From Candidatus Aquicultor sp. (GTDB lineage Bacteria; Actinomycetota; Aquicultoria; Aquicultorales; Aquicultoraceae): DNA of 64,000 nt. Within the stretch, counting starts at the first letter, position 1. The number at the start of each line of letters is the position of its first letter. The notes beneath the pieces are model-generated. The model had not been told where the DNA came from. It saw nothing but the letters and a program-made list of their open reading frames with translations, and ran no database searches. This document shows positions 22,156 through 47,126 of this stretch, piece after piece. The stretch is from positions 124,001 to 188,000 of the forward strand of contig DASXVE010000034.1 of the NCBI GenBank assembly GCA_036504445.1, read 5' to 3'. The position numbers were made by a program, and so were the translations under genes.

Positions 22156-22434
22156 AAAAAAACGAGCAATCCGTTTAGCCGACCTGGTCTTTGACCCCAC
22201 ACTCGCCTGCCGGAGGCTTCGCAGCCCCATTCTGGACCACTGGAACCCCTCTCGCCATCATGTGGCGGCAGGGCTTACCCCTAAGACGCACCATGCTCGG
22301 CAACCCGCACCCTAGCTACAAGAGCTAAAGCCCGCGCACCTTACGTGGATCCCTTTGCCTGCGCCTAGCTTGGACTACCCGGTTCCCGGATAAACCGGTC
22401 ACCGGGGCAACCACAGACCTAAACGGATGCCCGC
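22156..22434 (-). ncRNA. Structured ncRNA downstream of comFC, candidate raiA-motif RNA
   Basis: About 279 nt, read on the minus strand. The 5' end (22434-22419, GCGGGCATCCGTTTAG) pairs with the 3' end (22178-22163, CTAAACGGATTGCTCG) in a closing helix of about 15 bp with one bulge, followed directly by seven U residues. A consensus promoter lies just upstream. The interior is GC-rich with several further hairpins (for example CCGGTGACCGGTTTATCCGG). No coding frame has a start. raiA-motif RNAs are large structured RNAs of Firmicutes and Actinobacteria found near raiA/hpf and comFC; both genes are here. It lacks RNase P, 6S and SRP signatures as I know them. That it is a structured RNA is well supported; the family name is inferred. 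Confidence 0.7.
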
Positions 22435-45604: not shown

Positions 45605-45746
45605 TTGATTACCTTTATCAAAGATAGATTATATGGTTGAAGCACCCATATTTCTAGAAATTACCGGTTGGGAGGCAGGGTATATGCCTCCGATCTTTGC
45701 CATATGTAACCAGCGAAAACCAGCATCAAGCAAAGTTAAAAAATGA

Positions 45747-45752
45747 TATAAT
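45747..45752 (+). promoter_or_regulatory. Consensus -10 box overlapping the smpB start region
   Basis: TATAAT at 45747-45752 places the transcript start at about 45759-45760, exactly at the smpB ATG, which suggests a leaderless message. The -35 region is weak. Confidence 0.45.
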
Positions 45753-45759
45753 GGCAGGT

Positions 45760-46236
45760 ATGAAAAGAGCGAGAGATAAGGTCGCTGCGACAAATCGCAA
45801 GGCCTACCATGATTATCATATAGATGAGACTTACGAAGCAGGTATTGAGCTTAAGGGTTCCGAGGTAAAATCGGTTCGCGCTGCGCGCCTTAATTTAAGA
45901 GATAGTTATGCGCGTGTCGAAGACGGCGAGCTGTGGGTCTTTAATATGCACATCAGCCCGTACAGTCACGTCGATCGTTTTACGCAGCCGGAACCCGATA
46001 GGGCGCGGAAATTGCTGCTGCACAAAAAAGAGATCTTGAGGCTTATCGGCAAGACGAAAGAGAAGGGCTACACGCTCATACCGCTTAAAGTATATTTTAA
46101 CGACCGAGGCAAAGCCAAGATTCAAATTGGCCTGGCGCGAGGCAAACAGCTCTACGATAAGCGCCAGGATATCGCCGAGCGTACGCAAAAGCGCGAAGTG
46201 GAGCGGGCGTTGCGGGAGCGTCAAAAAGGTGAATAG
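45760..46236 (+). CDS. smpB: SsrA-binding protein SmpB
   Basis: 158 residues from ATG 45760 ([20 protein letters not shown]), matching the usual SmpB start; ATG 45751 falls inside a consensus -10 box. Family motifs: [62 protein letters not shown] and the basic tail. SmpB brings tmRNA to stalled ribosomes and mimics the codon-anticodon duplex. ssrA starts 110 bases downstream on the same strand. Confidence 0.97.
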
Positions 46237-46346
46237 CAGCGGTTGCCTTACAACTGCACGTAGATAGATGCTTTACAGCGGCGGCTCATTTACAATGACC
46301 GGCGTTTTTCTTATACTTAGGGTTCCGATCATTGAAATTTAAATAT

Positions 46347-46953
46347 GGGGGCGTTAGGTTTCGACTGAGGTTGGTTCTGGCAGGAGAAGCGCGCCGAGCT
46401 CAGGTAACTCGTTAAACTGCTTGGAAAAAACAAACGCAAATAACGAATTTGCATTAGCTGCTTAATTGCGGCTCGTCAACCCGGGATTAGGCTCACGGCC
46501 CCGGCACGACGTCATTTAAGTGGGCTCACCTCGCCCGGATGCTCATAAGGGTTGAGGGACATTTAATGAGCTAGCGTGAAGGCTGCCCTGCCTGTGGGGA
46601 GGCAGATCGCGAATAATTAATCGCAGGATACGCTCGTAGATGCTTCTGTGGGAATGCCTTAGGACGTGGGTTCGATTAGAAATGGTCGCCAGCAGCGGTA
46701 ACGCTGTTAGGAAAAACAGGGCTTACATCGGTGAACTCTAAGTTCTTCTAAGAATACGACAACGCCGAGGGGTACAAGAGGATAATGATACCTTGGGTGC
46801 CCTGTAGAGACTTATGTAGAAGTTACGCTGAAAAGCAAATCTATGGCTTCTACTATACGCTTTGCAACCGCGCTGTGTTGAGTACATGCACGGTTGAAGA
46901 CATAGTCCAGTCCTTTTGGAAACAAGAGGGTAGCTGTCCCACCGCCTCCACCA
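46347..46953 (+). ncRNA. ssrA: tmRNA (ssrA), interrupted by an intron in the T-loop
   Basis: The 5' end GGGGGCGTTAGGTTTCGAC and the 3' end CGCCTCC-ACCA form a 7-bp acceptor stem with one G-U pair; CCA is encoded. The tag reading frame ends GCA AAT AAC GAA TTT GCA TTA GCT GCT TAA, giving ANNEFALAA at the C-terminus; the resume codon could be that GCA or lie a few codons upstream (EKTNANNEFALAA). The gene is 607 nt, too long for a tmRNA, because the T-arm GTGGGTTCGAT is separated from TCCCAC by 260 nt. Without it the RNA is 347 nt, a normal size. It tags stalled nascent chains for proteolysis with SmpB. Confidence 0.95.
46677..46936 (+). other. Group I intron-like insertion in the tmRNA T-loop
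   Basis: 260 nt with no protein-coding frame. Boundaries fit group I rules: the upstream exon ends in U (TTCGAT) and the insert ends in G (AGCTG), restoring TTCGAT-TCCCAC. A P1 helix can form between exon CGAU and GUCG at 46685-46688 with the required U-G pair at the splice site. Core-like motifs are visible: CAGCAGCGGTAACGCTG (about 46690), an R-like GTAGAGACTTA, and an S motif AAGACATAGTCC at 46897-46908. T-loop group I introns in tmRNA genes have been described in other bacteria. Not tested by folding. Confidence 0.85.
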
Positions 46954-46955
46954 AT

Positions 46956-47126
46956 TTATTTTGAAAGCCACCTATTTGAGGTGGCTTTTTTATTGCCATT
47001 ACTGCGCTTGTTGAACCGCAGCTTACGTGGCTCAAACAAGCCGGTTTCGCTGATGTCGATTGTTTCTTTAACCTCTTTAGATTCGCCCTTCTTGGCAGAA
47101 CTAAGCCTATCTACCAACCAATCCAT
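46956..47126 (-). CDS. Possible small protein antisense to the ssrA terminator
   Basis: 56 codons from ATG 47126, rich in Lys, Glu and Ser (for example KKGESKEVKETIDISETG), with gene-like composition. The ribosome binding site is poor and it covers the ssrA terminator on the other strand. No family recognised; it may be a remnant or not a gene. Confidence 0.25.
   Translation of the reverse strand: MDWLVDRLSSAKKGESKEVKETIDISETGLFEPRKLRFNKRSNGNKKATSNRWLSK
46964..46991 (+). terminator. Rho-independent terminator of ssrA
   Basis: AAAGCCACCT-ATTTG-AGGTGGCTTT followed by T residues, 10 bases after the CCA end. Confidence 0.9.

Follow-up and report, generated by a model that had tools for sequence, protein, structure and literature searches.

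The single-copy tmRNA gene of a Candidatus Aquicultor genome, interrupted in its T-loop by a compact group I intron

The tmRNA gene (ssrA) of this Candidatus Aquicultor genome is very probably a single-copy, otherwise normal gene with a compact IA-like group I intron placed after nucleotide 6 of its T-loop, an intron that is predicted to splice. The gene lies in the 64,000-nucleotide stretch of DNA that was analysed, which we call the window. A group I intron in the T-loop of this tmRNA, with its boundaries and its P1 helix, had been put forward in a sequence-only reading of the window, and the proposal is upheld by comparative evidence that includes a natural empty site. The locus consists of the following features, in window coordinates (R1 is an intron-specific covariance model that is introduced below).

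46347-46953, + strand: tmRNA (ssrA) gene, interrupted by a 260-nt insert; 347 nt once joined
46347..46676, + strand: ssrA exon 1, with the 5' tRNA half, tag frame (ANNEFALAA), pseudoknot region, T-arm 5' strand and T-loop nt 1-6 (RF00023; ARAGORN on the spliced sequence)
46677..46936, + strand: group I intron, 260 nt, with a terminal G and no significant ORF (empty site in G008, covariation, R1 248.6 bits, RF00028 31.1 bits)
46937..46953, + strand: ssrA exon 2, with the last T-loop nucleotide, T-arm 3' strand, acceptor 3' strand and encoded CCA end (ARAGORN on the spliced sequence)
45697..46236, + strand: smpB, for the tmRNA partner protein (NF003843 211 bits, TIGR00086 193 bits, both above cut-off); frame as listed, the start probably lying further in
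46289..46317, + strand: promoter-like TTTACA-17-TATACT upstream of ssrA; weak, as the number of such matches in the scan is near chance expectation
46964..46994, + strand: terminator-like hairpin AAAGCCACCT-ATTTG-AGGTGGCTTT followed by a T-rich tail; read from the sequence and absent from the listing of the terminator/promoter scan

The two exons make a complete tmRNA once the insert is taken out. The RF00023 match (46354-46678, 125.2 bits with a cut-off of 47, E 6e-50) stops in the T-arm at the insert, and ARAGORN calls no tmRNA on the uninterrupted DNA, given either as the whole window or as the local unspliced stretch. After in silico removal of 46677-46936, it reports a 347-nt tmRNA with a full acceptor stem, a T-arm, the resume consensus and the tag ANNEFALAA; the textbook T-arm and the RNA length expected from joining the halves are thus borne out. 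By RF00023 and ARAGORN together, the joined exons have the complete tRNA-like domain and tag frame that define a tmRNA. The 5' part of the T-arm, GTGGGTTCGAT (46666-46676), and TCCCAC (46937-46942) have exactly 260 nt between them, as had been noticed earlier, and the exon junction reads ...GGGTTCGAT/TCCCAC. The insertion point falls between T-loop nucleotides 6 and 7, the "position 7" of intron-form tmRNAs (PMC11915505), as fixed by the exact empty site in a relative.

The gene starts 110 bp downstream of an intact smpB, with the gene for RNase R (rnr) further upstream. The source genome that was searched has 2.57 Mb in 34 contigs and a completeness estimate of 100%; it contains only one tmRNA over the RF00023 cut-off, and the intron is likewise single-copy by model search and DNA search. 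The CCA end is encoded in the window tmRNA and in the intronless genes of G002 and G009; the genes of the other carriers and of G008 end in CCTCCACA and would need CCA addition. Elsewhere in the window, a raiA RNA motif lies at 22170-22427 on the minus strand (154 bits, above its cut-off).

The structure of the intron was assigned by hand on ten introns, from which the helical core was cut out, each segment being confirmed in order in its locus. In the window intron the helices are arranged as follows.

46673..46688, + strand: P1, 5' exon CGAU and intron UA with the internal guide UGGUCG; U.G at the splice site, GAAA loop; pairs 5 and 6 covary
46691..46708, + strand: P2 with a GUAA tetraloop; 7/7 pairs change on both sides
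46717..46722, + strand: P3 5' strand, partner 46859-46864 (comparative alignment)
46728..46768, + strand: P4 enclosing P5; P4 is 46728-46733 with 46763-46768 (comparative alignment)
46769..46803, + strand: P6, 46769-46773 with 46799-46803; its loop is where relatives differ in length
46809..46814, + strand: P7 5' strand of the guanosine-binding helix, partner 46903-46907; nearly invariant
46816..46853, + strand: P7.1, a subgroup IA-type feature, 46816-46822 with 46847-46853; 4/7 pairs change on both sides
46859..46864, + strand: P3 3' strand, partner 46717-46722 (comparative alignment)
46867..46894, + strand: P8 (comparative alignment)
46897..46907, + strand: S-like core motif AAGACAUAGUC and P7 3' strand (46903-46907); invariant in the family introns (RF00028 alignment)
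46909..46936, + strand: P9.0 (46909-46911 with 46933-46935), P9 with a GAAA loop, and the terminal omega-G; 8/10 P9/P9.0 pairs change on both sides

The core helices P3, P4, P6, P7 and P8 thus stand in the conserved arrangement of a group I intron by folding and comparison, P7 being assigned from its position and motif and not from covariation because it is nearly invariant. On P7.1, the subgroup is IA-like. The smaller marks named in the sequence-only reading are all in place: exon 1 ends in U and the intron in G, the guide GUCG faces CGAU with a U.G at the junction, and the S-like core motif is present (AAGACAUAGUCC). The U.G pair of P1 is invariant in 8/8 rows of the core alignment.

Pair counts were taken on the eight distinct rows of this hand-cut core alignment, which was used because MAFFT on the full introns misplaces P6 and P7 in one relative (L038). 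Paired cells amount to 97.5%, a percentage that is biased upward by the fact that the core segments were picked by eye to suit the structure; shuffling brings it to 84.6%, and sliding the partners by 1-3 columns lowers it to 37-45%. Many both-side changes are unlikely to come from such a choice: 27 of the 59 pairs change on both sides (62 cells), a level reached by 0 of 500 shuffles. Unconstrained minimum free energy folding of the insert recovers P1, P2, P4, P5, P6, P7.1, P8 and P9, with an energy z of -4.0 relative to shuffles. This structure also bears on the idea that the insert is cut out by ribonucleases without ligation, leaving a two-piece tmRNA like the circularly permuted forms. Other lineages often have tmRNAs in two pieces (PMC11915505). 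Here, however, the group I structure of the insert is complete and covaries, it takes the 5' exon into P1, and the insert ends in G; nor is the known two-piece form one that is broken in the T-loop and leaves a 3' piece of 17 nt unligated. We regard that outcome as extremely unlikely.

Covariance models place the insert among group I introns, with a similarity far beyond chance. R1 was built from seven introns, the window intron among them, and gives this member of its own training set 248.6 bits; the introns that were held out score 229 bits (L021), 230 (L025), 181 (L077) and 121 (L038). A search with the Rfam group I model had been suggested as a check on the intron, and it gave a mixed answer: RF00028 (Intron_gpI) matches 46780-46929 from end to end of the model with E 1.8e-5, but the 31.1 bits fall short of its gathering score of 50. 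P3, P8, the S motif and P9 are common to the window intron and this model. The low score reflects how the model behaves on tmRNA introns, because 10/10 related tmRNA introns that were tested also stay below 50, at 32-48 bits; the gathering score is non-discriminating here and is not a biological defining feature.

The score below the cut-off, together with a very weak P10 (one G.U pair by eye in the window, where relatives are able to form 2-3 pairs), might be taken as signs of a gene that has decayed to a pseudogene, or of an intron dead for splicing, with rescue done by another system. Such decay is very unlikely, since the genome has only the one tmRNA gene above cut-off, its exons together give a complete tmRNA fold in which the tag is intact, and the window's own substitutions in P2 and P9 preserve pairing. 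The other systems that were looked for are also absent above cut-off in the source genome: for ArfB (NF006718), the only matches are weak ones to two proteins of ~360 aa, which is the length of release factors, and RqcH (PF05833) has no match above cut-off. ArfB is equally without a match above cut-off in the other ten genomes of the family.

Homologous introns sit at the identical site in six further genomes of the family, making carriers of 7 of its 11 genomes, and also in other classes and phyla; intron-bearing tmRNAs occur as well in records titled Actinobacteria/Actinomycetota and Candidatus Poribacteria. An assembly artefact or a chance similarity, for which nothing was found in favour, is contradicted by these shared sites and can be given practically no weight. 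Among 396 genomes drawn from across the phylum, 9 contain a conserved 16-nt core motif of the intron, and 7 of the 9 belong to the source family. The uninterrupted tmRNAs of the family are those of G002, G004, G008 and G009. In one genus, the intron is present in G003, G006 and G010 and absent from G008, with exons that are 97-98% identical and flanks that are continuous on both sides; the empty site of G008 is exact and reads GTGGGTTCGATTCCCAC. Genus g5 has the carrier G007 and the non-carriers G004 and G009, the exons of G007 and G009 being 92% identical. On the exon tree of ten family genomes (G004 left out), the pattern needs at least three changes. With two introns as outgroups, those of the family group into a single clade, within which most branchings lack resolution, so that the tree does not separate vertical loss from transfer.

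The relatives' introns offer some observations of their own. In L021:722-1174 (G001) and L025:1334-1694 (G007), an insert full of repeats enlarges the loop of P6; it contains AAACAAG units in tandem and a hairpin, GAAAGGTGCGNAGCACCGGTCT. It seems that a dispersed repeat landed inside the intron in these relatives, because the hairpin is found at five places in G007 (with at most 2 mismatches). Relatives' genomes also hold group I introns at other sites: L064 and L069 adjoin or lie within pieces of 23S rRNA genes in G007 and G036, and L065, L066, L067, L068, L070 and L071 are further ones elsewhere (RF00028 64-96 bits). R1 gives 36-67 bits to the same-phylum group I introns that lie within or close to 23S rRNA or in other places (L064-L076, L078, L079). 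Their sites differ from that of the window intron, and their distance from it is far greater than that of the complete tmRNA introns, which R1 scores at 121-253 bits.

No homing endonuclease is encoded in the insert, in keeping with the earlier statement; a single ORF over it reaches 70 aa, an antisense frame of 77 aa that matches nothing in NCBIfam, so that the LAGLIDADG or similar gene of a mobile intron is lacking. The intron has no blastn match in phage and plasmid collections. In an Elusimicrobia record (L039:2803-3481, minus strand), a tmRNA 3' end is preceded by a group I core that is split by ~350 bases; the break falls near P7.1, where published homing endonuclease genes sit.

The first intron in a tmRNA was reportedly the subject of a paper by Williams in 2002. 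The sequence-only reading had described T-loop introns in tmRNA as known but rare. The first word stands, but the second needs qualifying because 883 unique intron-form tmRNAs have been catalogued, most of them with the intron at this main position, and the position is known from 21 phyla (PMC11915505); the intron form accounts for ~0.9% of all unique tmRNA sequences that the published database contains (PMC11915505). The window intron has in common with them the gene, the insertion site, the U before the junction paired to G in P1, the terminal G and the P7.1 region; it is 260 nt long against a published mean of 293, and it is without an endonuclease like ~96% of them (PMC11915505). Nothing fundamental differs, apart from a lineage in Actinomycetota where most of the published ones are from Bacillota (PMC11915505). 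The window intron is therefore genuine but of a well-described kind, hundreds of tmRNA genes with such an insertion being on record.

If the intron works as others of its kind do, the primary transcript would fold the core for which covariation speaks, a guanosine bound in P7 would cut after the U.G of P1, and ...UUCGAU would be ligated to UCCCAC. Ligation would restore the T-arm, which could not form before splicing. From what is known of tmRNA biology, the restored RNA would then have its ends processed, receive alanine and act together with SmpB. Judged on ArfB and RqcH alone, tmRNA may be the only rescue route of this organism, with splicing required for it; the lack of matches above cut-off for these two proteins strengthens the inference that rescue depends on splicing. 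A bolder version would have rescue wholly gated by group I splicing, the rate of splicing (through GTP or temperature, for example) regulating the supply of tmRNA, and presence and absence within genera reflecting selection and not neutral gain and loss; this we consider very unlikely. Within the family, the endonuclease-free intron may have been inherited with occasional exact loss, or it may now and then have been acquired by transfer, with the conserved exons of tmRNA as the place of recombination.

There is a practical gap here, in that ARAGORN misses the window gene, the Rfam group I model stays under its own cut-off on every tested intron of the group, and the published tmRNA_intron model is absent from Rfam. 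For the biology of the family, the finding documents exact presence and absence of an intron between near-identical genes (97-98% exon identity) within one bacterial family, and it provides a good natural setting for the gain and loss of an endonuclease-free intron inside a gene that is probably indispensable.
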